From: a virus
DNA length: 52,733 bases
IMG/VR virus record: IMGVR_UViG_3300010400_000010
Coordinates: 1 to 52,733 of that record
Direction: 5' to 3' (one strand)
In this document: piece by piece, positions 8,446-52,255 of the stretch
Position numbering within the stretch: the first letter of the stretch is position 1
How the letters are laid out: every line of letters starts with the position of its first letter
The notes under the pieces: model-generated
The model's input: only the letters and a program-made list of their open reading frames with translations
Database searches by the model: none
What the model was told of the DNA's origin: nothing
Position numbers and translations under genes: made by a program

Positions 8446-8505
8446 GTTACAGCATAATGTGTTGCTTCTATAACCAAAATTGGTTGGCACGCTTTATGCT
8501 GTAAC
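8446..8505. repeat. 12-base perfect inverted repeat framing capsid promoter P2
   Basis: GTTACAGCATAA (8446-8457) is the exact reverse complement of TTATGCTGTAAC (8494-8505). The right arm contains the -12 element of P2. A second inverted repeat, AACCAA/TTGGTT (8472-8485), is nested between the arms and abuts the -24 element. This could be a protein-binding arrangement or an extrudable hairpin. Confidence 0.85.
8484..8500 (+). promoter_or_regulatory. Sigma-54-type promoter P2 (major capsid gene)
   Basis: The site TTGGCACGCTTTATGCT has a perfect -24 block (TTGGCACG) and TGCT at -12 with correct 12-base GG-to-GC spacing. It lies in the 217-base gap before the major capsid gene, with a predicted start near 8511 and a leader of about 137 bases. 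Confidence 0.85.
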
Positions 8506-20140: not shown

Positions 20141-20370
20141 GCGCACCAGTTAATTTTATAGTTTTTACCTCACCAGATGTTTTGTTCACATCTGTTGCTG
20201 ATGCTAACAACTTTTTTGGAAACCTTACAGTTAGTAGTGCAACAACTGGAGTTGAAGGAGTTGTGAAAAAAGCCCTGTTACCAGCACCAGCGATTGTGGA
20301 CCTTACAGACCTCACCACAAAATTCAACCAACTCCTTAGTGCAATGCAAAACGCCGGTCAAGGACAATAA
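20137..20370 (+). CDS. Small unknown protein, 77 aa
   Basis: It overlaps the nozzle gene by ATGA, so it is translationally coupled to it. The product is mixed beta then helical (IVDLTDLTTKFNQLLSAM). No signal peptide. Probably a minor tail or assembly factor by position. No family recognised. Confidence 0.65.
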   Translation: MSAPVNFIVFTSPDVLFTSVADANNFFGNLTVSSATTGVEGVVKKALLPAPAIVDLTDLTTKFNQLLSAMQNAGQGQ

Positions 20371-20374
20371 AAAT

Positions 20375-20755
20375 ATGATTCATGCTACGAAAACTTTGGA
20401 CGATCTTGTGGAGTGGATATTAGTAAACAGAAAAGGAAATGCTTTTTCTGTGAATAAAGGTTGGGAAAAAGAACAAATTGCTTCTTCGATTGTATTTGCT
20501 TTTCAGTCCAACACATTGTTGTATTGTACGGAAAACAATGAGTTTGTGGGTGTGGTGGTTGGAACAAAATTGAATGGAACAGACACGATTGTTGTTCAGA
20601 ATATACTTGTTACAAAACGTGGAGTTTTAAAGAAGTTTGTTCAGGCTTTTCAATCAATGTATCCGGGTTGTGATTTGAGAGCAAAAAGAAAGGGAAAACT
20701 CGTTAATTATAACACCACAAAACTTTGTTCAAAAATTAAGAATTTATGCAAATAA
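20375..20755 (+). CDS. GNAT acetyltransferase-like virion-module protein (T7 gp13-like)
   Basis: From ATG 20375 the protein has 126 residues. A helical N-terminus (DLVEWILVNRK) is followed by a central strand (EFVGVVVGTKL), a second strand (VVQNILVTKRG) and a helix (LKKFVQAFQSMYPG). This order fits a minimal N-acyltransferase fold. Short-tailed phages often carry such a protein before their internal virion proteins. Acetyl-CoA-binding residues are weakly preserved, so it may be structural. Confidence 0.5.
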   Translation: MIHATKTLDDLVEWILVNRKGNAFSVNKGWEKEQIASSIVFAFQSNTLLYCTENNEFVGVVVGTKLNGTDTIVVQNILVTKRGVLKKFVQAFQSMYPGCDLRAKRKGKLVNYNTTKLCSKIKNLCK

Positions 20756-32017: not shown

Positions 32018-32036
32018 CAAAGGTTGTTATATAAAT

Positions 32037-32396
32037 TTAATCCATCCAATTTCTAAAATACGGCACCCATTGTTTACGAGAATTTTCACCATAAGGTAAA
32101 ACTCGAATATTCCATATATGATAACCCTCAGTTGGATTTTTTCGATCAATAGATAAACTATATTTGGATCGGCCCTTTCGCTCCATATACTCGGTTGAGT
32201 TTACAAACTGGGTGAATTCTTCAATGGTCAATGTAAACTCATGGCCTCGTTCTTTAGCTCGTTGTTTGATTTTATTGAAGGTGTATTTTATTGGATGGAG
32301 AATTTTATAAGCTTGGGATTTGTGCTTTCCACACTTGTCTGAGTGGTGATGGAGTGGAACTTTGTGACGGCAGAATTTGACGATGCACTTTTTCAC
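32037..32396 (-). CDS. HNH-like endonuclease
   Basis: The 119-residue protein has an N-terminal Cys/His cluster (CIVKFCRHKVPLHHHSDKCG) and a C-terminal segment SIDRKNPTEGYHIWNIRVL followed by GENSRKQW. This is the common D-R-I-x-P-x-x-G-Y-x-x-x-N-I-R pattern of HNH-type nucleases of phages. The first His of the pattern is not in the usual place, so it may be divergent. Its start overlaps the preceding gene by ATGA. It could be a homing-type gene or a packaging/recombination nuclease. Confidence 0.62.
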   Translation of the reverse strand: MKKCIVKFCRHKVPLHHHSDKCGKHKSQAYKILHPIKYTFNKIKQRAKERGHEFTLTIEEFTQFVNSTEYMERKGRSKYSLSIDRKNPTEGYHIWNIRVLPYGENSRKQWVPYFRNWMD

Positions 32397-32710
32397 AACG
32401 GTCCTTTTGTTAAGGTGTTGTAGAATTTTTGTTTTTCTTCCATTAAAGCTTTTTGTGCTTTTTCTAAAGACTGATAAAGTTGTGTAGTGTCCTGCACGGT
32501 TTCTCCATCAGATTTTGAAAGACAAACATCACTAGCATAAAACGTCAAGGTGTGTTTGTGTTTTGCTTCTGGACTTGTGTGTTCAATCAACAACACATCT
32601 TTGATTTCGTACTCATATCCGTTGGGGCCGACGACGGTAAGTTCAGTATATCCGCTAGTATTTGATACTGGGTGTTTTCTAAACTGATCTACCAAATCTT
32701 GGACAGTCAT
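32393..32710 (-). CDS. Unknown 105-aa protein coupled to polymerase
   Basis: The preferred start is ATG 32710 (MTVQDLVDQFRK), which overlaps the polymerase stop (ATGA) and follows AAGGAG, a good Shine-Dalgarno at usual distance, one of few here. The product is mostly beta in the middle (YTELTVVGPNGYEYEIKDV) with a helical C-terminus. No known family. Confidence 0.7.
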   Translation of the reverse strand: MTVQDLVDQFRKHPVSNTSGYTELTVVGPNGYEYEIKDVLLIEHTSPEAKHKHTLTFYASDVCLSKSDGETVQDTTQLYQSLEKAQKALMEEKQKFYNTLTKGPL

Positions 32711-35154
32711 ACCTTTATCTCCTTCATCTCTTTCCAATTTTCACCAACATAAGTTTCAGAACCCATCTTGAACTTTTCACCTCTAGGATTTACAAGGTCT
32801 TTTTCAAGTTCATCTTTTATGATCTTAGCAAGTTGGTTTTCAAAACCAATATTGCATTGGGCCAATATAGAGTCGTGGTTATTTTGAAGAATATCCACTC
32901 CATTATCTTTGAATTCTTTTGAATAGCATTGTTGCTGAAGTTTTGTAAAAGCAATGTTGGTTATGGTTCCTACTGTTGACTGAGGTATAAAGGCATACCA
33001 TTCTTTGCATTGACTATCATCAAGATAGGAGGTGAAAATTCTAGGAAAGCCGAACAGGTTTTTTAACGTTCGTGTGTTTTTGACTTGGAGATAAACAGAT
33101 CGATGGAAGTCATTTTTAATCTCGGGAAACAAGCCATGATAACCTGAGAGAATTTCTGAGGCTTGTCGGTTGTCAATGACAACAGCGCCGTGAGACTTGA
33201 GAAGTAAGTTAAGACGAAATGTAGGCGGCTTAATGTCATAATTACCGCTGTGACATCCTTGTTTCGCGTAATAGTAATATCTAGACTTGGAGTCCCATTC
33301 GTCAGATGACTTGATAATGCTAGAAATTTCTTTCCAATTTGAAAGATTCGATAATGACCTAATCGGGCTGTTGAGATATTCATTGAGATTATATCCTAAT
33401 CTATCTTCCCATACTTTTCTGAATTGATGTAAAGCAAAATAAGTGTGGGGTTTGATTTTGTTGATGAAAAGTTCTCTAAATCTACCATGAGAACAAAGAT
33501 AAGAAACTATCAGGGCTTCTGCACCGGATTGATCGACTTGGACAAATACTTTACCCTTGTCGGGGATAATATACTTTCTAATTCCTTTCTCCCAGTTCTG
33601 CATGTTTGTTCCCCATTTTGAAAGCAATTTTCTTGAAGATAGGCGAAAAGAGCTTGTGCCAGTAATAATGTATGAACCTGTGACACGTCTTTTTTCAGCT
33701 TCATTTCTAGCACCTCCCCATCTTTCAAATTTAAGCTTACCTGTTTCTGTTGTAAGTCCACGGTAATTGAGGATACATCCGAGAGTTGGTAGATCATGTT
33801 TTAGTTTGAGTTGTTGTAGGGTTTTTTCAGCAGTAGGAGCAGAAGAGTCAGGGCATTTTAGACCAAGACCGATTGTTTTGTCGTAAAGGTATTTGGAGAT
33901 TTGTTGCCAACTTCCAGGATTTATCTCACGGCCCGCCATGATTTTAAGCATTCGCTTATATTGAGCTTTAAGCCGTTCGTTAAATTCTACCCGAGTTTTA
34001 AATCCTTCTTCGTTGATGTTTAATCCTTGGAGTGTGGCAAGGAGATAAGGAGTGATGGAGTCACATGCTTGGGTAACAGATCGCCCGGTTTGTAATCGCT
34101 CAATTTCTGGTTGTTGGTTGCGCCAAACTTCCGTAGTTCCAATAATGTCGTTGGCGTTATATGTATATAGTTGTTGTGTCTGAGCGTGATTGTGAGGTTC
34201 GTAAACTCCGGTGTTCTTGTGATAGGGGAGATCGGTGTAGAGGGAGATACAATGTCCCAAAGATTTTTCTGTTTCGGTATATAGACGGTGATGTGAAACC
34301 ATAGTATCCACCACACTACCTGAGTTAATATTAAATGGAATACCGTATTTGTACGCAAGAATGAAAAGATCAAAACTGCCATTATGCAGGATAGTAGTAT
34401 TGTTACGAATAGCCACCGCCATAGCGGATAGTATTTTGAAAGTTTCGTTTCCATAAAAATACGTGTTAGGTTGTAAATATGTCTGAACCATCGGCACCAC
34501 CACCACATCAGGACTTCCCACAAAATTATAACCAAAACAAGTCATCTCTAAATGTGAGTTTGTCTCAATATCCAGAACTAATTTTCCTCCTCTAGTGTTT
34601 CTAAGTTCTCCAACAACTCGCTCGATGTCAGGCCACAAAATGACTTGATAGTTTTGAAGTTTTTTAACTCCTTCTTTAGCGATTCTACACGCTTTCCGTA
34701 TATCTTGTCTGAGCCAAAACTGCCAATTCTTTCTTCGTGTTGTTGCTCCTGTTGTTTTTTCGTCACCTTTTTCATTTTCACTCTCACTTTCGGATTCTTC
34801 GTCGAAGTAGTTTTGTCTATCGATGGAGTCTTGGGGGGAGAAGCTCGCAATTGCAACTACCCCATTTTGAAGTATAAATGGACTTCCCCTTTCTGACAGT
34901 AAGCTTGACTCTGGTTTGTAGAATCTTAGAGAAGACTCCCCTAATAATAACAACGTCTTTGTACCTTGCGGTGATCCTAATTTTTTGTGTTGTTCTAGAA
35001 TTTGTATACATAGGTTATGTCTAGATATGATGATGTCTTTTCGTTGTGGATTAAACAGCGATTGATTGAAGAATTCTCCGGCCCATCCAGATATTAACTC
35101 GGTTGTGTCAAAACGAGAAGGACGATCTAGAACTACATTGAGGCCGGAGTACAC
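32707..35154 (-). CDS. Family A DNA polymerase with N-terminal UDG-like and 3'-5' exonuclease domains
   Basis: The 815-residue protein starts with GTG. Residues about 35-115 look like a uracil-DNA-glycosylase-like fold (LLLLGESSLRF, LSERGSPF, then ASFSPQDS in place of the HPS motif). Exonuclease motifs are LDIETN (D195, E197), HNGSFDLF and YNANDIIG. Polymerase motif A is QVDQSGAEA (D541). Motif B is YYYYAKQGCHSGNYD. Motif C reads NNHDSIL (H760, D761, S762), so the usual Glu after the catalytic Asp is Ser. It copies the phage genome. The SPO1-type architecture (UDG-like, exonuclease, polymerase) is known. Confidence 0.9.
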   Translation of the reverse strand: MYSGLNVVLDRPSRFDTTELISGWAGEFFNQSLFNPQRKDIIISRHNLCIQILEQHKKLGSPQGTKTLLLLGESSLRFYKPESSLLSERGSPFILQNGVVAIASFSPQDSIDRQNYFDEESESESENEKGDEKTTGATTRRKNWQFWLRQDIRKACRIAKEGVKKLQNYQVILWPDIERVVGELRNTRGGKLVLDIETNSHLEMTCFGYNFVGSPDVVVVPMVQTYLQPNTYFYGNETFKILSAMAVAIRNNTTILHNGSFDLFILAYKYGIPFNINSGSVVDTMVSHHRLYTETEKSLGHCISLYTDLPYHKNTGVYEPHNHAQTQQLYTYNANDIIGTTEVWRNQQPEIERLQTGRSVTQACDSITPYLLATLQGLNINEEGFKTRVEFNERLKAQYKRMLKIMAGREINPGSWQQISKYLYDKTIGLGLKCPDSSAPTAEKTLQQLKLKHDLPTLGCILNYRGLTTETGKLKFERWGGARNEAEKRRVTGSYIITGTSSFRLSSRKLLSKWGTNMQNWEKGIRKYIIPDKGKVFVQVDQSGAEALIVSYLCSHGRFRELFINKIKPHTYFALHQFRKVWEDRLGYNLNEYLNSPIRSLSNLSNWKEISSIIKSSDEWDSKSRYYYYAKQGCHSGNYDIKPPTFRLNLLLKSHGAVVIDNRQASEILSGYHGLFPEIKNDFHRSVYLQVKNTRTLKNLFGFPRIFTSYLDDSQCKEWYAFIPQSTVGTITNIAFTKLQQQCYSKEFKDNGVDILQNNHDSILAQCNIGFENQLAKIIKDELEKDLVNPRGEKFKMGSETYVGENWKEMKEIKV

Positions 35155-35165
35155 GGGGATATTGT

Positions 35166-35453
35166 TTAATGAAACAACGCAACACCAACAAGTAGTCCTA
35201 AAATAAAACCAATCACAAGTTGAGGGATATAGTTTTCTGTTTGTTTTTTTTCTTTATTCTCAACAATTGGTTCTGCTTCAGAAATAAAATATTTTGCATC
35301 CCATGTTGTGATGGATGACGGAATTTTGTTGATGTCTGTATAAACTTGACATACAACATCTACTGTGTTTTTTCCAAGAACTTTAACATAAAATGTTGAA
35401 AGATATGGATTAACCCAGTAGAACTTTCCAATTTCAATATCTTCGGATTTCAT
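35166..35453 (-). CDS. Small protein with C-terminal membrane anchor, 95 aa
   Basis: A soluble beta-rich N-terminal part (GKFYWVNPYLSTFYVKVLG) is followed by a charged linker and a C-terminal membrane segment (LVIGFILGLLVGVALF). It overlaps the upstream peptide gene by ATGA. Tail-anchored topology is likely. No function recognised. Confidence 0.65.
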   Translation of the reverse strand: MKSEDIEIGKFYWVNPYLSTFYVKVLGKNTVDVVCQVYTDINKIPSSITTWDAKYFISEAEPIVENKEKKQTENYIPQLVIGFILGLLVGVALFH

Positions 35454-35563
35454 AAAATGAAAAACCTAATCACCAACATCACACACAATACCGACACAAA
35501 CATACAAATCACCACACCCATTATGAGTAAGGAGATTTCGAGAATTTTTTCTAAGAGTTTCAT
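35450..35563 (-). CDS. Membrane peptide, 37 aa
   Basis: An ATG at 35563 opens a 37-residue frame ending TGA that overlaps the next start as ATGA. The product is almost entirely one hydrophobic segment (ISLLIMGVVICMFVSVLCVM) with a charged N-terminus. The coupling to a tail-anchored protein suggests a membrane pair. Confidence 0.55.
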   Translation of the reverse strand: MKLLEKILEISLLIMGVVICMFVSVLCVMLVIRFFIL

Positions 35564-35569
35564 AAAAGT

Positions 35570-35788
35570 TTAAAGAAACATCGCCAGCGGTTGTCGGATT
35601 TCTTGACCATTCAACGGATTCACAAACATCACTTCTATGTTGTTTTTATCTATGTGGAGTTTCTTTCCTTCTTTTGTGAAGCAACAATAAAATCCGGGGG
35701 TGTTTTCAGAAGGATGGATGTCGAAAATCTCAACAGGAGGAGATTGTTCGGTGACGAAGTAGTTACGGATTGTGGGTTGAGGGAACAT
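35570..35788 (-). CDS. Small unknown protein, 72 aa
   Basis: A beta-rich 72-residue protein (VEIFDIHPSENTPGFYCC, then IEVMFVNPLNGQEIRQ) with SH3-like alternation of strands. It is tightly packed between neighbours. No family recognised. Confidence 0.6.
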   Translation of the reverse strand: MFPQPTIRNYFVTEQSPPVEIFDIHPSENTPGFYCCFTKEGKKLHIDKNNIEVMFVNPLNGQEIRQPLAMFL

Positions 35789-35794
35789 AAAATC

Positions 35795-36031
35795 TTAAAG
35801 TGCATCCCAAGAGTTGAAAATATAGTTTGCTAACATGATTTTCTGACAAAGATAATCTGGTTTGCCTTCCAGATTACGACCAATAAAATCACTCAACGGA
35901 TTATCAGCATCTTCATACAACCACCTTAGATACTCACCCGGAACATCTTTTAAATGTTCTCCTTTGTGTTTTCCAAACGGCATCAAATCTTCGTCGGTGA
36001 AAGCTGGTTGTTTTTTATCTTTTGTGAACAT
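35795..36031 (-). CDS. DUF3820-like protein, 78 aa
   Basis: The conserved core DLMPFGKHKGEHLKDVPGEY followed by LRWLY matches the DUF3820 pattern (PFGKHKG, then P-x-x-Y-L-x-W-L). The domain is frequently found next to or fused with exonuclease and recombination proteins in phages. It starts after an AT-rich leader without Shine-Dalgarno (TTTTTAATTTTTATG). Confidence 0.8.
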   Translation of the reverse strand: MFTKDKKQPAFTDEDLMPFGKHKGEHLKDVPGEYLRWLYEDADNPLSDFIGRNLEGKPDYLCQKIMLANYIFNSWDAL

Positions 36032-36140
36032 AAAAATTAAAAAGTTGTGGTCTAGTTTATCTTTAAATAAGTAAAAACCCAGACCAATAAAAACTTTTTC
36101 TCACTCTACACTATGCACCGTCATGTAGAACAAGAAGAAC

Positions 36141-36689
36141 TCAATACGGCATCACCACATCATCAAGCCTCGATCCTCCACTGATGTTGCTGATCCTGTA
36201 ACTCAACCGATTCATCGGCTTTCCATCATCATCCAACAACGGTTGATCAATAGTGCCTTCCTGCATCTCAACCTGAACTTCTGTTGAGATCAAACATTTC
36301 ACGGCTTTTCCCTTGTATTGATTGATGTTGGGATTATCAGCATTGAATGTTGGAGGAAGGTCCATTGCTTTGTGGATTTCCTTAATGTTTGCTGCTGAGT
36401 ATTTGTTGTTTAGAACCAAGTAGGTTTTGATTTTGTTTCCACCAACTTGAGCTTTCACTAACGGCCCCCCTAACGCTGGTTTTCCATCCACAATTTCAGG
36501 AGCCTCCACAATTTCAGGCTTCACAATCTCATAAGTGAATGTGAGCATTGGATTGCCTTTTTTGTTTTGTGCTTCCCACTTGACATCAATACAACGAACA
36601 ACACCAGAGCGTTTGGTGATGTAAACTGGTTTTGTTTCAGGGACTTCGTCGAGGTTAATATTGCCGGTGAGGTTTTGGTTTTCGTTCAT
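36141..36689 (-). CDS. DUF669-like single-strand DNA-binding protein candidate
   Basis: From ATG 36689 the product has 182 residues. An upstream in-frame ATG at 36746 would translate a pure A/C-rich leader (KQQKQKQNKKH) and overlap the upstream gene. The core (RSGVVRCIDVKWEAQNKKGN, PMLTFTYEIVKPE) and the ending RLSYRISNISGG fit OB-fold-like DUF669 proteins, which act as SSBs with Sak4-type recombinases. The neighbour two genes upstream is a Sak4-like ATPase. The A/C-rich leader resembles those of other strongly expressed genes here. Confidence 0.6.
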   Translation of the reverse strand: MNENQNLTGNINLDEVPETKPVYITKRSGVVRCIDVKWEAQNKKGNPMLTFTYEIVKPEIVEAPEIVDGKPALGGPLVKAQVGGNKIKTYLVLNNKYSAANIKEIHKAMDLPPTFNADNPNINQYKGKAVKCLISTEVQVEMQEGTIDQPLLDDDGKPMNRLSYRISNISGGSRLDDVVMPY

Positions 36690-36735
36690 GTGTTTTTTGT
36701 TTTGTTTTTGTTTTTGTTGTTTGATAGATACGTTA

Positions 36736-36990
36736 TCAGCGTTCAACCTTTTTAGTGGTTAAATTATTTAAAGGTTCAGTTTCCCAGTTGAATTGGCAGC
36801 AAGTACAATGATGCATTATACAATCTTTTTTGACTTTTGCTTCCATAAATTTTATACTAATGAACTCATTGATTCTTTCTTTGTGGCGATCAGAAAAACT
36901 AAGGTCTATATCTTCATCCTTTACTTTGAAATTTCTACAGATCGCAGTATTTCCACATTTTGGACAAGGAAATTGAAATGGCTTTTTCAT
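36736..36990 (-). CDS. Zinc-ribbon protein, 84 aa
   Basis: The N-terminal CPKCGN and C-terminal HHCTCCQF clusters form a zinc ribbon with a charged helical insert (DRHKERINEFISIKFME). It overlaps the Sak4-like gene by ATGA. Its use could be DNA or RNA binding in recombination or transcription. Not otherwise recognised. Confidence 0.7.
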   Translation of the reverse strand: MKKPFQFPCPKCGNTAICRNFKVKDEDIDLSFSDRHKERINEFISIKFMEAKVKKDCIMHHCTCCQFNWETEPLNNLTTKKVER

Positions 36991-37661
36991 GATTTCTTAT
37001 AATAATTCAACGCTTCATCAATCACAAATTTGAGATCATTCTGGATCAACTTCTCCTTAAACATCTCCATCGGCGTCTTTGCACTACAAACTCCATCAGT
37101 GTTGGTACGAAAATGATATGAGATTTCCCCACTTTTTGGGTCTTTCTTCACTTCCGTAAACAACACCATCAACATTTCTTTCTCTATCTTTCCTTCGTGT
37201 TCTTTTCCCGGACAATAAATCCTTCTTGCTGCTGTTTCGGCGCCGTCGGCTTGAGGGATTTTTACAATCTCATCTATTGCAGTAAGACACACTACACAGT
37301 TGGGATTTTTCAAACCATCTAAAAATCTCCTGATTGTTGCGTTGAAATAGTTGTAGATGTCGTAACCTTTGAAAGATTGTTTTGCAAACTGCATCACGTA
37401 TTCGGTGTATTTTGTAAAACTATCTATCACTAACAATTCGGTTTTATCTTCAACTGCTTTTGCTAAACATTCTTTCACAACCTTGTCTGTTGCTGCCATG
37501 TTGTCGCATGTGAAGATTGGGAATTTTTCAAATCCTCGAAATGGGAAACCTTTACCTTCAAGATCAATGAGTTTGGTTGTGGTTGGATTGAGATTTCTTA
37601 GAGATGTGGATTTGCCTGAACCTGAAGGACCGACAATTGAGAGGAGTGCTTTATTGGACAT
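36987..37661 (-). CDS. Sak4-like RecA-fold ATPase (AAA_24 type)
   Basis: The 224-residue protein has Walker A GPSGSGKST at residues 11-19, an early acidic LIDLEGKG, Walker B ELLVIDSFTKY and a late NTDGVCSAKTP segment, all typical of the Sak4 group of phage single-strand annealing/RecA-like proteins. Its partner is the DUF669-like SSB candidate. Together with the Cas4-like nuclease this is a phage recombination set. Confidence 0.8.
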   Translation of the reverse strand: MSNKALLSIVGPSGSGKSTSLRNLNPTTTKLIDLEGKGFPFRGFEKFPIFTCDNMAATDKVVKECLAKAVEDKTELLVIDSFTKYTEYVMQFAKQSFKGYDIYNYFNATIRRFLDGLKNPNCVVCLTAIDEIVKIPQADGAETAARRIYCPGKEHEGKIEKEMLMVLFTEVKKDPKSGEISYHFRTNTDGVCSAKTPMEMFKEKLIQNDLKFVIDEALNYYKKS

Positions 37662-37688
37662 GATGATTGGGGTTGTTGTGTGTTTTAG

Positions 37689-37865
37689 TTATAGTTCAAA
37701 ATACGATTCAAGTTTCTTTATTCCGCCGTTTTGCAAATCGGGCCGTTCTTCTTTTACTTCAATATACTCTACTCCAACATCAAATCCTTCCCAAGTTTTG
37801 CATTCAAGATCACCAAATGCTTCGATGTGTTCTTGCAGGTCTTTGATTAGTTCGGATGCTTTCAT
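37689..37865 (-). CDS. Small phage protein, 58 aa
   Basis: ATG at 37865 opens MKASELIKDLQEHIEAFGDL, a start seen in many small phage proteins, followed by a strand with VGVEYIEVKEE. It ends TAA at 37689. The start overlaps the TGA of an even smaller frame (ATGA), so the gene is probably read from the same mRNA. Confidence 0.6.
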   Translation of the reverse strand: MKASELIKDLQEHIEAFGDLECKTWEGFDVGVEYIEVKEERPDLQNGGIKKLESYFEL

Positions 37866-37936
37866 TCTATTATATCTATGGTTGCTCCAAAAAATTCTTC
37901 TGGAAGATTATCAAAGTCGATGGTGTCAAAGTTCAT
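37862..37936 (-). CDS. Micro-ORF, 24 aa
   Basis: ATG 37936 to TGA 37862 encodes an acidic 24-residue peptide (MNFDTIDFDNLPEEFF). It overlaps the upstream gene by 11 bases and the downstream gene by ATGA. It may be only a coupling element rather than a functional protein. Confidence 0.4.
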   Translation of the reverse strand: MNFDTIDFDNLPEEFFGATIDIIE

Positions 37937-38384
37937 TTTGTTTTGGAAGATCATCTAATTCTTTTTGCAACTTTCCTTCCTCAATCAGTTGTTTTGTCTC
38001 AATCAAACACATCAAGTTCCAAACCGCAGCAACATCATGAGGCTCGTTTGTTAAACCTTGTAGGTGTTGGAAAGTATGACGGAGGGCCGAATCCAAATAT
38101 CTACTCAATGGCATTCCTTTTTCCCAATTTCTTTCTCCATACATTTTAGCACCGATTTCAAAATGTTTTGCGAGTTCTTTCAAAGCACGAGGTGGAAGCA
38201 AATCAAATCGGCCCTTATCTTTTCTTGAGTCTCGTTGAGAACCAGTGGAGAATTGTTCCTTGGTTTGTTCGACAAGTGGTGCTCCTTTTAAAAATTCTTC
38301 TCTTACTTCACTACAACCTTTTGAGCAACATCCATCTCCGTATACAATATAGCCAATTTCTTGAAAACAATTTTTGCAGAGCAT
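37926..38384 (-). CDS. dATP/dGTP diphosphohydrolase-like (DUF5664) protein with N-terminal Cys cluster
   Basis: The N-terminus has a zinc-finger-like cluster (CKNCFQEIGYI, then CCSKGC). From about residue 45 the pattern RKDKGRFDLLPPRALKELAK, MYGERNWEKGMPLSRYLDSA, ALRHTFQHLQG and DVAAVWNLMCLIET matches the DUF5664 family, named for dATP/dGTP diphosphohydrolase in 2-aminoadenine phages. It would hydrolyse purine dNTPs in the pool. No PurZ or DatZ is seen here, so base replacement is not indicated. The family is also present in ordinary phages. Confidence 0.7.
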   Translation of the reverse strand: MLCKNCFQEIGYIVYGDGCCSKGCSEVREEFLKGAPLVEQTKEQFSTGSQRDSRKDKGRFDLLPPRALKELAKHFEIGAKMYGERNWEKGMPLSRYLDSALRHTFQHLQGLTNEPHDVAAVWNLMCLIETKQLIEEGKLQKELDDLPKQNEL

Positions 38385-38399
38385 AATTTTTATTAGTTT

Positions 38400-39356
38400 T
38401 TATTCGTGAAATTTTGTTGGATCATACGTGACTTTTTTAAACTCACTTTCCAATAAACTCTCCTGATCTTCTTTTGAATCCATGCTACATATTCTGTGAA
38501 ACTCACATTGTCCAAACTTGGTGTCACAAGCTGTGAAGTTGTAGGGAAAACTTGTGAATGTCTCACCTTTAAGATATAACCTCAGGTTGTTTAAAAGATT
38601 CATCAGCGTTGTGTCCAAATGAACTTCAAATCTCCTGATCATTTCATCAGAAAAAACTATCACATCTGAGCGTTTGAAAATGGGTTTGGCGGTTTTGTTG
38701 ATAAAGATGCCGTTGATCATACAACCTACAGAGGATTTATTTTCTGGAAACAACAACTTATAAACATAGTTATACAACATTAGTTGTGGAGAGAGATAAT
38801 AGGAGTTGAGATAGTTGTCAACTTGGGTTAAGCTTGTGGTTTTGTGGTCCACAAGGAGGGTGTAACCTGTTAGGTTATCCAATGCTATCATGTCGATTGT
38901 TCCAGTCAACAACACTTCAAACAAATCATCTTGATAGTAAGGGATTGCGAAGGTTTTTTCTAAGATTGGTTTTCCTTCATTGTCTTTAACAGCAACCAGT
39001 CTTTCTTTTCCTTCTCCATATTGTTGCCAATACTTAACAACCGTTGTAACTAGATTTGCTGGTGTTCTCCAATCGGTTTCAGGGATGAAAATTTCTGGAC
39101 TACAATAATGATCAGTGGCAAGTTTGATCATGTTGTCAAGATTTCCTGTAGTGTAGAACTCGACCATGGATTTGTGGAAAGCCGTGCCGTATTCCATTTT
39201 GAATTCTTTTGTACTAGATCGAAGACCTCGGATGAGTTTGTAAAACAACTTTCTAGAACAAGAGCTTTCTTTGTAAATGGACGCGTCGAACATGATGATA
39301 TAACGGCCTGTTTGTGGATCATGTTGGAGAGCGAGTTCAGGATGAAGGTTAGACAT
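38400..39356 (-). CDS. Cas4/RecB-like PD-(D/E)XK nuclease
   Basis: From ATG 39356 (MSNLHPELALQ) the protein has 318 residues. It has CSRKLFYKLIRGLR and GTAFHKSMVEFY near the N-terminus, the nuclease core LTGTIDMIALD and LLVDHKTTS (Asp, then Asp-X-Lys), and a later SYYLSPQLMLYNYVY. Cys residues at the C-terminus (CDTKFGQCEFHRIC) with an N-terminal Cys could hold an iron-sulfur cluster as in Cas4/AddB. A 5'-3' resection nuclease for recombination is the likely role. Confidence 0.78.
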   Translation of the reverse strand: MSNLHPELALQHDPQTGRYIIMFDASIYKESSCSRKLFYKLIRGLRSSTKEFKMEYGTAFHKSMVEFYTTGNLDNMIKLATDHYCSPEIFIPETDWRTPANLVTTVVKYWQQYGEGKERLVAVKDNEGKPILEKTFAIPYYQDDLFEVLLTGTIDMIALDNLTGYTLLVDHKTTSLTQVDNYLNSYYLSPQLMLYNYVYKLLFPENKSSVGCMINGIFINKTAKPIFKRSDVIVFSDEMIRRFEVHLDTTLMNLLNNLRLYLKGETFTSFPYNFTACDTKFGQCEFHRICSMDSKEDQESLLESEFKKVTYDPTKFHE

Positions 39357-39361
39357 AAAAA

Positions 39362-39658
39362 TTAAAGTAATCCCATCTCTTGTTTGATCCATCTTGGCCA
39401 AACCTTAGAATTTTTTGACACTTTTATTGTGTCTAATTCATACCACCAAATATTCATATTTTCTAACAAAACTCCAAGTTTATCTGGAGGACATTTATAT
39501 GATATACAAGCAAGTCCAAAGCCATCGTATCTTGGATGGCTTACTTTTACAACAGTTGTTTTGAAAAAGAATGTTTTGTTTTTGAAGTCTATAAGATCAG
39601 CACAAGCTTTTCTGTATGATTCTAGAGACGAAAGAACTTTCGGGGTAGGTTTGGACAT
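39362..39658 (-). CDS. Unknown 98-aa protein
   Basis: Basic, beta-rich protein with aromatic residues (TFFFKTTVVKVSHPRYDG; NIWWYELDTIKV). It is tightly packed before the nuclease gene (5 bases). No family recognised. Confidence 0.6.
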   Translation of the reverse strand: MSKPTPKVLSSLESYRKACADLIDFKNKTFFFKTTVVKVSHPRYDGFGLACISYKCPPDKLGVLLENMNIWWYELDTIKVSKNSKVWPRWIKQEMGLL

Positions 39659-41771: not shown

Positions 41772-42260
41772 TTAAACTGTTGGAGCCGGAGCCGCATCCC
41801 CCGCATCTTCCAACAACTTCGCTTTCATCTTCTCCAACAAGGCCAAACCACCTTGAACATCTCCTTTGGAGAACAACTCTTGGGCTTCTTTCATCAGCAT
41901 GTTCGCACTCTTTTCACGAGTTCCAGGACGCCAAGCTGTAGCTTGTTCTTGAGTGAACAAAACTCCATCAGGAGATTTCGCCTTCAAACGCGCACGAAAC
42001 GCATCAAGAGTTTCACCTTTCTTCAACTCATGATCGAGCTTCACTTTCGTACGAAGCTTTGCTGCAATAGAAGTGTTGGCCAGATCAAGAATAGCTTGGA
42101 CTCCATAATCCAAGGTGAGCTTGTCAAGGTTGTTGTATTCAGGAATGATAAAGGTGTAACCGTTAAGATCACCCTTTCCGTAGGTTTCCTTTAGAAATTC
42201 CACATCAGGTTTGGGAACAACTGTCGGAACTGGATTGATTGGTACTGTTGGATCACTCAT
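41772..42260 (-). CDS. Abundant-looking unknown protein driven by sigma-54-type promoter P3
   Basis: The 162-residue protein has a Pro/Val-rich N-terminus, a small beta part (NGYTFIIPEYNNLDKLTL) and helices (AILDLANTSIAAKLRTKV, MLMKEAQELFSKGD) with an Ala/Pro end. Codons are biased (CGT, AAC, TAC, AAG) like the capsid gene. It is alone between P3 and a terminator-like hairpin, inside the otherwise replication-type strand. Its architecture resembles that of the 52403/407 protein, also driven by a sigma-54-type promoter. A DNA- or host-protein-binding role at high copy is possible, but the family is unknown. Confidence 0.8.
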   Translation of the reverse strand: MSDPTVPINPVPTVVPKPDVEFLKETYGKGDLNGYTFIIPEYNNLDKLTLDYGVQAILDLANTSIAAKLRTKVKLDHELKKGETLDAFRARLKAKSPDGVLFTQEQATAWRPGTREKSANMLMKEAQELFSKGDVQGGLALLEKMKAKLLEDAGDAAPAPTV

Positions 42261-42356: not shown

Positions 42357-42373
42357 AGCAAGAAGCGTGCCAA
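42357..42373 (-). promoter_or_regulatory. Sigma-54-type promoter P3 (perfect consensus)
   Basis: Read on the minus strand, TTGGCACGCTTCTTGCT matches the -24/-12 consensus at every defined base. The predicted start is near 42347, about 86 bases before the ATG at 42260. It lies in a 136-base gap. Confidence 0.9.
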
Positions 42374-42396
42374 GCGTTCTGGTTATATAAGTAGGT

Positions 42397-43878: not shown

Positions 43879-44706
43879 TTAAAGAAGGTCTTCCTCCGTT
43901 ATAGATTCTATTCCAAGTGTTTCAACTTGACGTTTAAGGTTTAGTAATTGACGAACGTTGCCACTTAACAGTCGTTGGACTTTTGCACCAACTTTTTCTT
44001 GTGAGGCTGGTTTGGTTTGTTGGATCATGTTGGTTAGTTCTGGTGGTAGGTTGAATAGTTCTAGGTCGCCGGCCCTTTCTCTTAATGGAAGAATTTTTAG
44101 TTTGAAGCAACTCAATCTTTCATATAAGTCCCGTCGAAAGGTTCCTTTTTCAATCAATCTTAATAAGTCTCTGTGAGTTGCAAATACAAACCTACACTCA
44201 GCAATCGACTCACTACTACTTCCTACTTGTCTGTATGTACTTTCTTGAAGCAATCTTAACAACTTAACTTGTTGCATATTGTGTAAGTCTCCTATCTCAT
44301 CAATAAACAATGTTCCTCCTGTTGCTTGTTCTATCAAACCTTTTCTATCCCTATCAGCTCCAGTATAGGAGCCTTTTTTACTTCCAAACAACTCGGCTTC
44401 AAACAATGTGTCAGTAATGGCGTTAATGTTGACTGCTACAAACTCTCCTGTTCTAGTTCCGTGGAGAATTTTAGCAATGAGTTCTTTTCCAGTACCACTC
44501 TCTCCAGTTATTAGGACTGGTTCTTTTAGAACCGAGAGCTTTATAGCATTTTGTTTTAGTTTGATACAAGTTGGATTTTGAGTTTTGAAACAATCCATTG
44601 CATTATGTGTTGTTGTGGCTTGGATTATCCCTAGCTCAGACGCCAGCTTTCTTGCTTCTGGTGGGATGGATTTAGAAATGAGTTTGTTGATTTCGTCGGG
44701 GGACAT
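43879..44706 (-). CDS. Sigma-54 activator (bacterial enhancer-binding protein AAA+ domain), no DNA-binding domain
   Basis: From ATG 44706 the protein has 275 residues. An ATG at 44760 would overlap the upstream gene by 46 bases. It has Walker A GESGTGKE (68-75), the sigma-54-contacting loop GSYTGA (112-117, consensus GAFTGA), Walker B GTLFIDEIGDL (DE 136-137), sensor I ATHRD (176-180), arginine finger region FRRDLYERLSCF (190-201) and sensor II SGNVRQLLNL (248-257). The first about 50 residues are not a known regulatory domain, and the Fis-type HTH normally at the C-terminus is absent. Known relatives without HTH (such as FlgR or CtcC) act from solution. It should remodel host RpoN-RNA polymerase at the seven -24/-12 sites here. 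Confidence 0.92.
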   Translation of the reverse strand: MSPDEINKLISKSIPPEARKLASELGIIQATTTHNAMDCFKTQNPTCIKLKQNAIKLSVLKEPVLITGESGTGKELIAKILHGTRTGEFVAVNINAITDTLFEAELFGSKKGSYTGADRDRKGLIEQATGGTLFIDEIGDLHNMQQVKLLRLLQESTYRQVGSSSESIAECRFVFATHRDLLRLIEKGTFRRDLYERLSCFKLKILPLRERAGDLELFNLPPELTNMIQQTKPASQEKVGAKVQRLLSGNVRQLLNLKRQVETLGIESITEEDLL

Positions 44707-44714
44707 AAGAGATG

Positions 44715-44906
44715 TTAGGTGATTTGTTTCTTTTTCATTAACTTGCGGCATGTTTTGCATGTAACTTGATCATCCATCATGAAAAATCCATTATGAATAC
44801 CTGATAAAGATTTTGTATGCTTTGCTCCACATAATGTTTTAATGGATTTTGGGTATGTGATCGGCATTCCTTTTTTGGCTGTTAGTTTGTGTATTTTGTT
44901 TTTCAT
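44715..44906 (-). CDS. Small Cys-containing protein, 63 aa
   Basis: Basic 63-residue protein with Cys residues (TLCGAKHTKS; QVTCKTCRKLMKKK) that could bind one zinc ion. It ends 8 bases before the activator start and overlaps the upstream gene by ATGA. It may be a DNA-binding partner of the activator, but this is only positional. Confidence 0.6.
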   Translation of the reverse strand: MKNKIHKLTAKKGMPITYPKSIKTLCGAKHTKSLSGIHNGFFMMDDQVTCKTCRKLMKKKQIT

Positions 44907-45505: not shown

Positions 45506-46510
45506 TTACATCGCCCAGCTTCCTTCATTTCCTTCTCCAAACTGATCTCCCAACCCATCATGTGACACAATCTTATACAATCCTGTCAACATGAGTTTGA
45601 ATTTCTCTATAATCTGTTCTTTGTTGTTTTCGTTTGCTACGTCGAAAACCAAACTGTTTTCTTTTTCATTGATTTTCAACTCTTCAGGAGTGATGGATTG
45701 CATTGTAGAGCCATATCCACCTTTGGTTGTCATGTTGTCAAAACCATAGAGCTTAATAACTTTTGTCTCAAACATCTCTTCCAATCTAAAAACAAATCTC
45801 CTAAGCATAAACGCACTACAAATTGCCACTAGCATTTTATGCTCATCAAACATTTCGTTGAAAGATTTGATCTTAATGTATGTTATTGTACATTCACTAC
45901 TATCTCTTCCCCAACTACTGTTGGAGATTGGAAAATATGCATAAACTTCAGTGTTAAAACCGATGGTTTCTAGATGATAGATAAGAGAATACATTAGAGA
46001 ACCCCGAACAAAAAACATATCAGGATCAATATTACTGTTGTTTGCGCAATTCATATAGATTGTTTGAAGTTTGTTTCCAATCTTGATGGAGTTTTCATCT
46101 TGGGTTTCTTCTACAAAATGTGTCGGTCCACAATCTGAGACGGCCATACCCATGTCTATGGTTCCTCCACTTACTACATGATGTTGGGTTTTTTGAAAGC
46201 TTTGAGAAGGGAGGATTTTCTCAAATAGTTCTTTTGGTAAACTTTCTTGGACTTTCTTGAGAGTGTCTGCTCCTTCTTTCCAGCCTTTGAGTAAAAAAGA
46301 AATGGCTTCTTCTAAAATTTGCGTTCCACTCCATGGATTGAGGCCGAATTCTTGACTCTCAGAACATGGAGTAAACTGTTGCTTATAAGAGTCTGGTAGT
46401 TCTTTTTGAACTATCTCTACAAAGTTTTCCCAATCAAGTTCTAGTTTGGAGGCTTTTAAACCTTTGATTTTGTGAGATAAAAGATTAGGAATTAGATAAG
46501 GTGTGGACAT
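45506..46510 (-). CDS. Partner protein of the MoxR-type ATPase (VWA/DUF7192-like?)
   Basis: From ATG 46510 the product has 334 residues. Earlier in-frame ATGs translate the intergenic hairpin and overlap the ATPase gene. Features are HHVVSGGTIDMGMAVSDCGP, then DMFFVRGSLMYSLIYHLE and a later IVSHDGLGDQFG. This order (a glycine-rich MIDAS-like start and a conserved R-G-x-x followed by an L-x-x-L-E helix) resembles phage proteins paired with MoxR/CbbQ ATPases. By analogy it would be the adaptor or substrate-binding half of a chaperone pair. Confidence 0.55.
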   Translation of the reverse strand: MSTPYLIPNLLSHKIKGLKASKLELDWENFVEIVQKELPDSYKQQFTPCSESQEFGLNPWSGTQILEEAISFLLKGWKEGADTLKKVQESLPKELFEKILPSQSFQKTQHHVVSGGTIDMGMAVSDCGPTHFVEETQDENSIKIGNKLQTIYMNCANNSNIDPDMFFVRGSLMYSLIYHLETIGFNTEVYAYFPISNSSWGRDSSECTITYIKIKSFNEMFDEHKMLVAICSAFMLRRFVFRLEEMFETKVIKLYGFDNMTTKGGYGSTMQSITPEELKINEKENSLVFDVANENNKEQIIEKFKLMLTGLYKIVSHDGLGDQFGEGNEGSWAM

Positions 46511-46541
46511 AAGATATGAGTATGAAAATGAGTTTGTTCTT

Positions 46542-46558
46542 CGGCATCTTCGATGCCG
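46542..46558 (-). promoter_or_regulatory. Hairpin between ATPase and partner genes
   Basis: CGGCATC/GATGCCG is a perfect 7-base-pair stem with a 3-base loop, 31 bases before the ATG at 46510. The stem sequence is the same as at 1849-1868. There is no following T-run, so processing or translational control is more likely than termination. Confidence 0.5.
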
Positions 46559-46568
46559 TTGGATCATT

Positions 46569-48248
46569 TTAGAAAGGTGTATCTTTGGAGATTTTCTTAG
46601 AACCTTGGAAAGATTTTCCTGTTGCAGCATCAAAATCTACACCTACTTCTTGGAATGTGGATTTACCATAACTCTTCGGCTTCAATCCTTGTGGTAACAC
46701 TCTATCAATATCTGTTTGTGAAGTATTTCTAAAAATCACTCCTTTTAAGATTTTGTTAAGATCAGCATTGGGTCGAAACAAAAGCTTTGTGACATTGAGA
46801 ATGTTTCGTGTGGAAACAATAATTTTGAAGTTGTTCTGAGAGATGTTGGTCCTTAACTCAAGGAGGCCGTTGAAAACTTCACAACCTTTTGCATTCCATT
46901 GTTCCAAAGTTACAACACTTCTAACTAACTGTTCTTCAAACTTTATATCATAATCCCAATCAATTGTGTAAAACTCGTTTAAAAACGCGGCATCTAGAGG
47001 ATTACGTCCTACGTATTCTCTTGTTGCTCCATTTCCCCATGTATTCATTGCACACAAGATTCGGGTTTCATCATGTGGGGTGATTTGACCATGAAAAGGA
47101 ATGTTGATACTTTTTGAAAATATCCCTTTCAACACCATCAAGACATTTTCATTTCCAGCATCGCATTCGTCAATAAAACCTAGTCCACCTTCCAAAATCA
47201 CCGGAACTAAATAACCTGGAATATAACTTCCAGAAGAAGATGTGTATCCTACAAAATCATGCAATTGCACACTTCGGCACATTTGTTTTGCACAATAATG
47301 TTTAGAGGCTAAGATTTTACTGATCTGACGTGCTGCCATGGTTTTTCCACTTCCTGTCGGACCAACTAACGCGACTGGAATTCCAGCTTGAAGAACATTT
47401 ATTGCTTCCAACAATTTTGGATGAGTATGTTCTTGGAGTTCTTGAATTGGAGATTCTGGAAGAACCCTGTGTTCAATAACTATCTTTCTTTCAGAGATGT
47501 CTACGGTTTTGAGCTTTTGTTCTACAAGCTCAAGAACTTCATTCTCGTTTAGGGCCGACTCTTGTAGTTTTTGAATTTCTGCTGTTACGATTCTATCTGC
47601 ATTAAATAATAATTCAATATCTGGCTTGACTGCTTCAATTGCAAGTCTTTTAATCATTTCGTCCATTGATGATGTCATATTAGATGGTGTGGTATATGGT
47701 GTTGGTTGAGATTGGATAGATGGAGGTGATGGATATTGTTGAGGTTGTGGAGTTTCTAGTTTTCTTCTGTAGCTATAACCTTTAGTTGGAGTGCGTCCCG
47801 GTTTAACTGTCTGCGTCCATGTTCCATCATCACATAAAAGTTCATCACCCTCTATCAAAAGCTCATGTGATGCTACTAGTCTATAGCCTTCTCCAAACAT
47901 AATTTCTGGAGAAAGTTGAGAAGGTTGTGGTCCAACATATCTTCTAAATCTCGCATTAGTATAACTATTTACTTTTCTTCCAACAGCTTGACTACAAACT
48001 TTCCACTCACAATCTATTCTATTCCAATACTCATCTCCTTTTCCTATTGTTTCATCACCACTAAGTTCTCTGTATTCGTTGTCAGGTTTCATAACTTTTT
48101 CTATTGGACGGCGATATTTAAGACTAGAGCTTATTGGTTGTCCGGGAGTGTTGATGGATTTCTCCCATTTTTTAGATGAATTATTAAATACCTCATCTCC
48201 TTCTTGAAGAATATCTCCATTTTTTAACTCTTGGTATTCTTTTTCCAT
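46569..48248 (-). CDS. MoxR/CbbQ-type AAA+ ATPase with three N-terminal repeats
   Basis: The first about 165 residues are three copies of a module with plan Y-R/Q-E-L...G-D-E...W...G...Y/F-R-R (EYQELKNGDILQEGDEVF, EYRELSGDETIGKGDEYW, GYRLVASHELLIEGDELL). A linker and coiled region follow, then the AAA+ core with Walker A GPTGSGKT, Walker B GGLGFIDECDAG and CAMNTWGNGA. MoxR ATPases remodel partner proteins, usually with a VWA-type companion. The gene downstream is the likely companion. The repeats may bind a surface or DNA target. Confidence 0.8.
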   Translation of the reverse strand: MEKEYQELKNGDILQEGDEVFNNSSKKWEKSINTPGQPISSSLKYRRPIEKVMKPDNEYRELSGDETIGKGDEYWNRIDCEWKVCSQAVGRKVNSYTNARFRRYVGPQPSQLSPEIMFGEGYRLVASHELLIEGDELLCDDGTWTQTVKPGRTPTKGYSYRRKLETPQPQQYPSPPSIQSQPTPYTTPSNMTSSMDEMIKRLAIEAVKPDIELLFNADRIVTAEIQKLQESALNENEVLELVEQKLKTVDISERKIVIEHRVLPESPIQELQEHTHPKLLEAINVLQAGIPVALVGPTGSGKTMAARQISKILASKHYCAKQMCRSVQLHDFVGYTSSSGSYIPGYLVPVILEGGLGFIDECDAGNENVLMVLKGIFSKSINIPFHGQITPHDETRILCAMNTWGNGATREYVGRNPLDAAFLNEFYTIDWDYDIKFEEQLVRSVVTLEQWNAKGCEVFNGLLELRTNISQNNFKIIVSTRNILNVTKLLFRPNADLNKILKGVIFRNTSQTDIDRVLPQGLKPKSYGKSTFQEVGVDFDAATGKSFQGSKKISKDTPF

Positions 48249-48254
48249 AACCTT

Positions 48255-49850
48255 TTACTCCTCCACTTCAATCTCATTTCCAAGTCCCTCACCAGTGATT
48301 TCTTTGTCATCTTCGTTTTCTTCATCATTGTTGTCTCGTTCAAAACATTTAGCAAACAATTCCTCCACATCTTCATCGGTTTTCTCATCCGGCATGAACA
48401 GACTTGCAAATTGTTCCTTGGCTATGATGGAACTGTTAATACACCTGAACTTGCGTTCGACTTTTGGTTTTACTTTTTCACTCTCAATGGTGTCTTTGAA
48501 CCAGAAAACTCGTTGACGTGTAGGAGAAATTGAAGTTAACCGATGGCCACGTCCTAACAATTGGGCCATTTCAATTGCAGACCATGTAGCAGGAATAAGG
48601 ACATCCCGTGGTAGTGTATTGGGATTATCATGATGAAGACTTATTGACTCTCCTCCCGCTCCAATCATTACCAGCATTATTTTTCTTCTACCAGATTGAA
48701 AATCATCTACCATTTGTTGTCTTACTTGTTGGGACTGACCGCCAACAATATATGCTATGTGGTCTTTATCTACGCCGTGCTTTTTAACCAGTGTTAGGTA
48801 AATAACTCGTAAGGCATCTTTGAAATTTTCTCCTACGATGGGAAACATGCCGGATTTGTAACTTATATAAGCTTCATCTGCCATTGGACCAGCACGTAGT
48901 AATGCACACTTTTGACGAAATTTTATAATCGACGCCATCATCATTCCCCACCGAGATTTTGGAGCACTTTTACCTGCTTCTCTAAGTTCCTCTAACCATT
49001 CTACCACGGCTTGATCATAAGCCATTCTATCTTGCGGAGATGCAAAATCACATTCTACACACTCGCTATGGGCTGGAAAAGGAAACCGAACACCTTTTAC
49101 TTCCACCATATAAGGAAGCAATTCATTCCTTAACCGTTTCATTGCACTTGGACTAAACTCCTCTATTCCTTTTGGACTTGCTATCTCCCGTAAAATCCAC
49201 GCACTTGTTTCTTTTGTGGCTTTCAGGTTATTAAACCTTGTTACCACATCAAGAGTTTCTACTATTGCTCTTGCATCCTGTATTCGTTGGTATGGTGTTG
49301 CACTAACATGAATTACTTTTACAGATTTAGGAAGTTCACGAATCACTCTTGTTCTCATTGAACTTTCGTTTCTGATTTTTTGACATTCGTCACAAATCAC
49401 CATTGCTGGCAACATCCATGGGTTCCAAACTGGTTGAATGTCTGGGTTTCCATCTTTATCAACACAACCTACAAAACTCACAAACATGTTTTGACATTCT
49501 TTTCCTCCAGTGTAGCAGAGTTGAGAATAACTCATGACCATGCACAAATGGCCAATGCCATAGGTTTGCAATTTCCTTTGGGTTTCGACTACGCCGCTTG
49601 CAGTTGTAAGCACTAAGATTGGAAAAGGATTACAAGAGCCGGGTGGCACTTGCAGAAAAGAGCCGTCTCCTAACATTTGATTAAGAGCATCTGCAAACAT
49701 GTGGGTTTTTCCTAACCCCGTTCCGGCTCTAAAGAGAATTCCTTTTTTGGTTCTCTCAGTGTGGAAAGCTTCGACAATTTTTGACGTTGTCTTTTTTTGC
49801 CAAGGAAATTCCTTTAGCTTGTCGTATTGGATGGGCTTTAAAGTGAACAT
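48255..49850 (-). CDS. SF2 (DEAD/H-like) helicase
   Basis: The 531-residue protein has motif I RAGTGLGKTHM, motif II ICDECQK, motif III VSATPYQR and, in the second RecA lobe, the late GAGGESISLHH and QLLGRGHRLTS (motif VI). The C-terminus is highly acidic (EENEDDKEITGEGLGNE). It is an ATP-dependent nucleic acid helicase/translocase for replication, recombination or transcription. Confidence 0.85.
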   Translation of the reverse strand: MFTLKPIQYDKLKEFPWQKKTTSKIVEAFHTERTKKGILFRAGTGLGKTHMFADALNQMLGDGSFLQVPPGSCNPFPILVLTTASGVVETQRKLQTYGIGHLCMVMSYSQLCYTGGKECQNMFVSFVGCVDKDGNPDIQPVWNPWMLPAMVICDECQKIRNESSMRTRVIRELPKSVKVIHVSATPYQRIQDARAIVETLDVVTRFNNLKATKETSAWILREIASPKGIEEFSPSAMKRLRNELLPYMVEVKGVRFPFPAHSECVECDFASPQDRMAYDQAVVEWLEELREAGKSAPKSRWGMMMASIIKFRQKCALLRAGPMADEAYISYKSGMFPIVGENFKDALRVIYLTLVKKHGVDKDHIAYIVGGQSQQVRQQMVDDFQSGRRKIMLVMIGAGGESISLHHDNPNTLPRDVLIPATWSAIEMAQLLGRGHRLTSISPTRQRVFWFKDTIESEKVKPKVERKFRCINSSIIAKEQFASLFMPDEKTDEDVEELFAKCFERDNNDEENEDDKEITGEGLGNEIEVEE

Positions 49851-51939: not shown

Positions 51940-52228
51940 CGGCCTAGGACGCGATATGGCGGGTCGATACGCCGGGGGATGTTGTCACTCTAGATATGGG
52001 GGAGGATGCGCCTACGGTCAAACCCGAGAGGATTTGAGCGGTCCTAGCGGCTCGATCTAGCCGTTGGCTCAGCCATGCGCTTTGTCGCATTAAACCCCTG
52101 CTATCATTACTCAGGCTCAGCTTGTTAGATAATCTCACGGCGGGAATCATATCATAGCGGTGTCCAGTGTCTACAATAGTTTTGGGTTTAACTTGCGATG
52201 GGAAGACCCTATGGCACACTCTATGCTT
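51940..52228 (-). ncRNA. Candidate structured RNA or long leader downstream of P5
   Basis: This block has clearly higher GC than the genome around it and is preceded on its strand by sigma-54-type promoter P5. The predicted RNA contains many local hairpins: ATGCG/CGCAT around 52078-52094, CGGCT/AGCCG around 52046-52064, and GCTAT/ATAGC. The segment CAAGTTAAACCC (52195-52184) can pair with TTAACTTG (52239-52232) or with GGGTTTAA (52097-52090), which are partly exclusive. A frame is open on this strand (51944-52327), but its Ser/Arg-rich product and lack of a start after P5 argue against coding. No known RNA family is recognised. Confidence 0.4.
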
Positions 52229-52239
52229 TGACAAGTTAA
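52188..52239. repeat. Inverted repeat around promoter P4
   Basis: TTAACTTG (52188-52195) and CAAGTTAA (52232-52239) form a perfect 8-base inverted repeat. P4 lies between the arms. The right arm touches the -12 element of P5. The plan resembles the inverted repeat around P2. Confidence 0.65.
52211..52227 (+). promoter_or_regulatory. Sigma-54-type promoter P4
   Basis: ATGGCACACTCTATGCT has TGGCAC, correct spacing and TGCT. It faces the 52403 gene, giving a leader of about 165 bases. It lies face to face with P5 on the other strand. Confidence 0.7.
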
Positions 52240-52255
52240 GCATTTTCCATGCCAA
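52239..52255 (-). promoter_or_regulatory. Sigma-54-type promoter P5
   Basis: Read on the minus strand, TTGGCATGGAAAATGCT has the full -24 block and TGCT with correct spacing. The predicted start near 52229 lies at the end of P4. It would transcribe the GC-rich block toward 51875. Confidence 0.75.

Follow-up and report, generated by a model that had tools for sequence, protein, structure and literature searches.

The window analysed here, a 52,733-base stretch of DNA, is a separate virus record. Because its ends share 123 bp, the phage record is probably complete. At 43879-44706 on the minus strand lies a gene for a 275-aa protein, a predicted AAA+-only bacterial enhancer-binding protein (bEBP), i.e. 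a sigma-54 activator. The longest open reading frame (43879-44760, minus strand, 293 aa) begins at an ATG at 44760, which results in a 46-nt overlap with the upstream ORF 44715-44906. The ATG at 44706 is located 8 nt past the stop of that ORF in the context TAA-catctctt-ATG, comparable to TAA-catctt-ATG at 6861. Since the 44760 start overlaps the upstream ORF and the context of 44706 is seen at other starts, the 275-aa gene, as an earlier sequence-only reading had delimited it, is likelier. Most gene starts in the window lack a Shine-Dalgarno sequence, and many have a TAA-CAT(Y)n-ATG or AACAT/AAAAAC context.

The sequence-only reading had assigned the protein to the sigma-54 activators, and a profile search agreed: the best match is PF00158 (Sigma54_activat; E=3.4e-53) at 180 bits versus a cut-off of 20.2, and the nearest non-bEBP AAA+ family reaches 25 bits. 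The four motifs on which that reading relied are all present and align with those of homologues (minus strand throughout): Walker A GESGTGKE (residues 68-75, 44482-44505), kept in 23 phage homologues save for S/T at 70 and E/D at 75; loop 1 GSYTGA (residues 112-117, 44356-44373), aligned at the position of GAFTGA, the sigma-54-contacting motif; Walker B FIDEIGDL (residues 134-141, 44284-44307); and sensor II GNVRQL (residues 249-254, 43945-43962), where N250 and R252 are invariant. In addition, we found FRRDLYER (44116-44139), which supplies the arginine fingers R191 and R197, and F-x-x-DL-x-x-R is kept in homologues. In the alignment of 23 phage homologues the catalytic residues are kept throughout the family, and loop 1 follows the pattern G-x-[FY]-[TS]-G-[AS], with GAFTGA, GSFTGA, GAYTGA and GSYSGA as variants. 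In one activator subgroup (L017-L028) serine replaces the GAFTGA threonine (GSYSGA), yet the -24/-12 site next to the gene is retained.

Comparisons of profile and structure gave the same picture. A profile of the 23 phage homologues matched NtrC4, FleQ, NtrC1, LuxO, ZraR and PspF in the PDB (E 1e-76 to 1e-60), and the top PDB matches by sequence and by fold all belong to the NtrC family of activators. For the AlphaFold2 model of the activator (pLDDT 86.6, pTM 0.79), the best 50 Foldseek matches in the PDB are all sigma-54 activators (TM 0.64-0.73 by query), FleQ, NtrC4, NtrC1, FlrC and PspF among them. Among the predicted viral structures of BFVD, the best matches (CobS and ClpA-like proteins) share 14-19% identity; a close viral relative is therefore absent from that library. 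The activator also matches phrog_7998 at 1e-37, a PHROG annotated as 'unknown function'. Judged by its domain, loop 1, catalytic motifs and predicted fold, the protein is a member of the bEBPs (AAA+ clade 6). Its proposed lack of both a regulatory N-terminal domain and a Fis HTH was borne out as well. The C-terminus lies 21 residues after GNVRQL, hence no Fis HTH fits, and the 40 N-terminal residues form low-confidence predicted helices and contain no Pfam domain. A 2020 review sorts bEBP architectures into five groups, where groups 1-4 have a C-terminal HTH and group 5 has an N-terminal response-regulator domain (PMC7175178). With neither an HTH nor a response-regulator domain, the predicted AAA+-only architecture falls outside all five.

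The activator gene is part of a long series of minus-strand genes. Upstream of it is a block (45506-49850) of a helicase (48255-49850), a MoxR/CobS-type AAA+ protein (46569-48248) and a DUF7192 protein (45506-46633), in an order that is kept in relatives. Downstream follow three genes, a -24/-12 site at 42357, a gene for a 162-aa protein (41772-42260) and a replication block (30788-39401), assigned by PHROG/Pfam matches and synteny, with a PD-(D/E)XK exonuclease, a Sak4-like protein, PolA, an endonuclease VII-like protein and a primase/helicase. On the plus strand, the terminase large subunit (2302-4146; phrog_2, E=5e-18) is nearest to Akkermansia phages at an identity below 30%. Capsid, portal and scaffold candidates were assigned by position only: the 417-aa capsid candidate (8648-9901, plus strand) owes its name to lying behind the candidates for portal and scaffold, has no PHROG or PDB match, and is 36-53% identical to homologues at the same position. 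We found no match to RpoN in the window or across 24 phage records. The remark that no phage RNA polymerase is seen likewise stood, as none was matched among the 38 larger window proteins scanned by profile; PF00940 (T7-type polymerase) was not found either, in a search without a positive control, the control genomes also lacking PF00940. An Rfam search gave no match.

Sigma-54 recognizes the consensus YTGGCACG-N4-TTGCW with fixed spacing, and we used TGGCAY-N6-TGCW as the strict site pattern. This specific pattern was chosen because the generic GG-N10-GC is not enriched in the window (153 found versus 145 expected). The window contains seven exact matches to TGGCAYNNNNNWTGCT versus 0.14 expected from dinucleotide shuffles, which establishes as real the sites behind the promoters that had been labelled P2 and P3. 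A sigma-70 consensus scan, for its part, stays at chance level (29 versus 30.5 expected). Five of the sites are intergenic, and the intergenic share of the window is ~10%. The best of them, TGGCACGCTTCTTGCT (42357-42372, minus strand, 26.4 bits), precedes the 162-aa gene by 97 bp and stands ahead of the replication block. Another, TGGCATGGTTTATGCT (1200-1215, plus strand, 22.2 bits), heads the terminase genes; relatives, too, have sites near the terminase block. From the start of TGGCACGCTTTATGCT (8485-8500, plus strand, 21.8 bits) to the start of the capsid candidate there are 163 bp. The site TGGCATGGAAAATGCT (52239-52254, minus strand, 22.4 bits) heads the leftward block of helicase, MoxR, DUF7192 and activator genes. 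The weaker TGGCACACTCTATGCT (52212-52227, plus strand, 14.8 bits) would drive a 204-aa gene that spans the record ends (joined across the terminal repeat), and it probably belongs among the sites at heads of gene blocks. The two last sites face each other with overlapping start regions (52212-52254), where the leftward and rightward gene blocks diverge. With a weight matrix built from relatives only, sites 42357, 52239, 1200 and 8485 rank as the top four of the window, each above 21 bits and all intergenic, versus 0.05 hits above 20 bits in shuffles scored with the same matrix. Three to four good matrix matches sit in coding sequence of the window.

Three sigma-54 sites are preceded, at about -45 to -35, by a partly palindromic element CTTMTATAA(G/C) (ACTTATATAAGT, GCTTATAGAAGC), with copies at 1179-1190, 8465-8476 and 42380-42391; several tandem copies occur at 643-725. 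Relatives share other upstream elements, namely ATTATACT-N5-AGTATAAT in G016 and G018 and TAGAAGAYAG in G001 and G054. Such elements might act as sigma-70 boxes, as operators or in tethering. Inverted repeats of at least 8 bp were found upstream of 6 of 75 sites versus 1.4 expected, a signal that is only suggestive.

Relatives, mostly contigs that are uncultured fragments, were collected by three independent routes: through the activator, the DNA polymerase (PolA) and the capsid candidate. Scans of viral contigs with the single window activator or terminase gave no match, and alignment queries were required. The activator route yielded 79 viral loci, including ~50 short proteins of 237-310 aa that end soon after the sensor-II arginine. 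Nearly all short-activator loci have a same-strand site 3-358 bp (usually less than 270 bp) behind the activator stop. Through PolA, 46 viral records were obtained; sites occur in 40 of the 40 that carry PF00158 and in none of the six fragments without it, a co-occurrence that in fragments is partly trivial owing to the activator-adjacent site. The capsid route gave 71 loci; among the 65 with enough upstream sequence, 48 have a strict site 109-226 bp ahead of the capsid-candidate start, versus a single hit in total for nine wrong spacings. Among the 17 capsid loci without a strict site, six carry TGGCAG-N6-TGC at -118/-119. On whole contigs from this route, PF00158 is present in 21 of 25 as short open frames of 263-310 codons, and the other four are 20-34 kb fragments; all whole contigs of at least 35 kb encode the activator. 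Sites were found in 25 of 25 (one with the reversed-pattern control). The survey of related phages that the sequence-only reading had proposed thus links activator and -24/-12 sites in dozens of contigs, collected by three routes.

The spacing and composition of the sites conform to sigma-54 promoters. In the pooled family loci, which overlap, intergenic sites number 281 at the correct spacer versus 3 over six wrong spacers, and coding matches 75 versus 160. In 12 whole contigs (588 kb), there are 75 sites at the correct spacer versus 1-10 at each of nine others; they lie behind the activator or at the head of the replication block, near the terminase block and, in 11 of the 12, upstream of the capsid candidate. 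No peak at the correct spacer was seen for loci with ordinary bacterial-type bEBPs. Among 140 non-redundant sites, the columns left open by the search pattern agree with the sigma-54 consensus: T at -27, G at -20 and T at -15. A small second information peak falls at +1/+2, 12-13 nt behind the GC, which is the predicted start position.

Gene order around the sites is also conserved. The minus-strand order in the window is helicase, MoxR-type AAA+, DUF7192, activator, three genes, site 42357, 162-aa gene, exonuclease, Sak4-like, PolA and primase. In relatives the order is the same but these three genes are missing, and the site is flanked by the activator and the 162-aa gene homologue, the latter directly behind it. 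Because of this shared order, promoter 42357 appears orthologous to the site of the relatives, with three genes in the window between it and the activator. The pair of MoxR/CobS-type AAA+ and DUF7192 genes (45506-48248 in the window) keeps its place directly upstream of the activator. PolA is arranged in two ways: its matches fall on two separate ORFs in G009, G016, G017, G018, G026 and G028 (~48-53 kb) and in a MAG contig (G030:C112), and on one ~800-aa ORF in the window and the other subgroup. In a maximum-likelihood tree, the short phage activators form one group (97/94), apart from bacterial-type bEBPs. The family of bacterial viruses with this activator and these sites is widespread, though uncultured.

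Other bEBPs labelled as phage proteins differ from this family. Many GenBank entries filed under Salmonella, Listeria, Acinetobacter or Enterococcus phage names appear to be bacterial contigs with ordinary bEBPs. Nearly all GenBank 'phage' bEBP hits look bacterial and were rejected as true phage; one of them, H1/L011, is a response regulator of Bacteroides type that carries an HTH. A single bEBP-bearing GenBank record seems to be an authentic phage, namely MT121960.1 (phage DP SC_2_H4_2017; L002). This human-gut phage encodes an HTH-less bEBP at 19770-20684, with Walker A GETGTDKE, beside helicase and primase genes. Like PHROG 7998, it is a short phage PF00158 protein adjoining replication genes, but unlike the window its record contains no TGGCAY-N6-TGCW sites. 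It groups with a Bacteroides-type regulator in the tree and is an independent acquisition. Short phage bEBPs of 282-304 aa also occur on two site-free contigs (L063 9833-10681 and L065 6638-7552), with a tail of ~30 residues after GNVR.

Taken with the known biochemistry of bEBPs, these data make it very likely that the phage activator opens the phage -24/-12 promoters on the sigma-54 polymerase of the host, at the replication, terminase and capsid blocks and at its own block. Host sigma-54 RNA polymerase would sit on these promoters as a silent closed complex, and an early transcript from another promoter would yield the activator early in infection. The activator should be active at once because it has no regulatory domain, and should act from solution because it has no HTH. 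Such constitutive action from solution is predicted from the domain architecture and has precedents in DctD250 (PMC3844500) and CtcC (PMC7482065). An activator ring would touch sigma-54 via the GSYTGA loop and use ATP for promoter opening without an enhancer site. Site 42357 would turn on the replication block, and sites 1200 and 8485 the terminase and capsid blocks. Site 52239 would drive the block with the activator's own gene, resulting in a positive feedback loop. The sequence-only reading had the phage take over transcription; for the replication block and the late blocks such a takeover is likely, but the very first transcripts must use something else.

The system as proposed requires a host with RpoN. 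The sole cellular link we found is a 49.9-kb contig of the family in the Deltaproteobacteria MAG RA.bin139 (GTDB), which has RpoN; the MAG-binned contig (L188 / G030:C112, JAKLES010000002.1) carries the activator and four sites. The MAG is a possible but weak host lead, binning of phage contigs being unreliable. Host bEBPs are common where RpoN is present, and RA.bin139 has six besides the phage one. The phage sigma-54 promoters might therefore be opened mainly by host activators, e.g. starvation or stress bEBPs, in which case phage genes would be coupled to the state of the host and the phage protein would only provide a boost; the sites are, moreover, present independently of any enhancer found. 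However, an activator of their own is kept in every whole contig of at least 35 kb in the capsid sample, and since the phage activators are one clade with intact catalytic residues, the phage protein seems to be needed. We consider control by host activators quite unlikely.

The phage protein could also serve mainly to switch on the host sigma-54 regulon and alter host physiology, the phage sites being secondary. An unregulated AAA+ activator without an HTH should indeed be promiscuous, like DctD250 (PMC3844500), and activation of host sigma-54 genes may be a side effect. As a main function this is very improbable, because dozens of conserved sites at the heads of phage operons would be needless for it. 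Finally, the block that the gene shares with helicase, MoxR and replication genes, the short lid and the variable loop 1 (GSYTGA, GSYSGA) might suggest a bEBP-derived replication or remodelling ATPase that no longer acts on sigma-54, with another reader for the -24/-12-like motif, but this is highly improbable given that loop 1 is kept as G-x-[FY]-[TS]-G-[AS] across the family, that the motif has the sequence and spacing of sigma-54 promoters along with a matching predicted start position, and that it travels with the protein in the PolA and capsid samples.

Opening of the phage's own promoters by its activator can be compared with several known systems. By architecture, the nearest functional analogue of the activator would be DctD250, an engineered AAA+ domain of Sinorhizobium DctD with constitutive, enhancer-free activation of many sigma-54 promoters (PMC3844500). 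Both consist of AAA+ only, with no regulatory or DNA-binding domain, and constitutive enhancer-free action is predicted for the phage protein; DctD250, however, is a laboratory truncation of a bacterial protein, whereas the phage activator is natural, conserved and has its own promoter set. Group 5 FlgR of Helicobacter and CtcC of Chlamydia likewise have no DNA-binding domain and act on the sigma-54 regulon (PMC7175178, PMC7482065). CtcC retains a regulatory domain (PMC7482065); both are cellular proteins with a response-regulator domain and phosphorylation control, whereas the window activator is viral. Group 4 bEBPs PspF and HrpR/S have no N-terminal regulatory domain (PMC7175178), but they keep the HTH and bind enhancers, and PspF is, despite its name, a host stress regulator and not a phage protein. 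Among phage regulators, late-gene activators such as T4 gp55/gp33/gp45, Mu C and the phiEco32-type sigma factors redirect the host polymerase (cf. PMC2988020, PMC4461284, PMC8948821). As proposed for the window phage, a phage protein there reprogrammes the host polymerase for middle or late genes. These systems use a sigma-70-type holoenzyme or replace sigma, and to our knowledge none of them takes the ATP-driven sigma-54 route. More generally, the known phage routes to host transcription are own polymerases, sigma factors and sigma-70-type activators.

Full-text searches of the open-access literature turned up neither a phage-encoded sigma-54 activator nor a phage sigma-54 regulon, and the phage records and viral structures searched hold no description of such a system, in line with the earlier remark that phage bEBPs with a matching promoter set are little described. 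The parts are of known kinds; what appears to be new is their combination in a virus and the AAA+-only form.

Overall, we think it likely that a lineage of tailed phages runs its replication and virion genes via host sigma-54 by means of a stand-alone, non-DNA-binding AAA+ activator. This would be a transcription strategy of its own kind, with feedback on the activator's own operon and perhaps triggering of the whole host sigma-54 regulon. If true, a sigma-54 programme would keep promoters tightly silent until the ATP-driven activator comes, which suits a timed lytic switch. Under such a programme RpoN would be a host factor for these phages, and rpoN mutants should be resistant to them. As a natural AAA+-only activator, the protein might allow sigma-54 regulons to be mapped cleanly, a purpose that the engineered DctD250 has served. 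The combination of a short PF00158 protein and TGGCAY-N6-TGCW sites would serve as a computational tag to annotate much of an uncultured lineage of phages and to narrow its hosts to RpoN-bearing bacteria.
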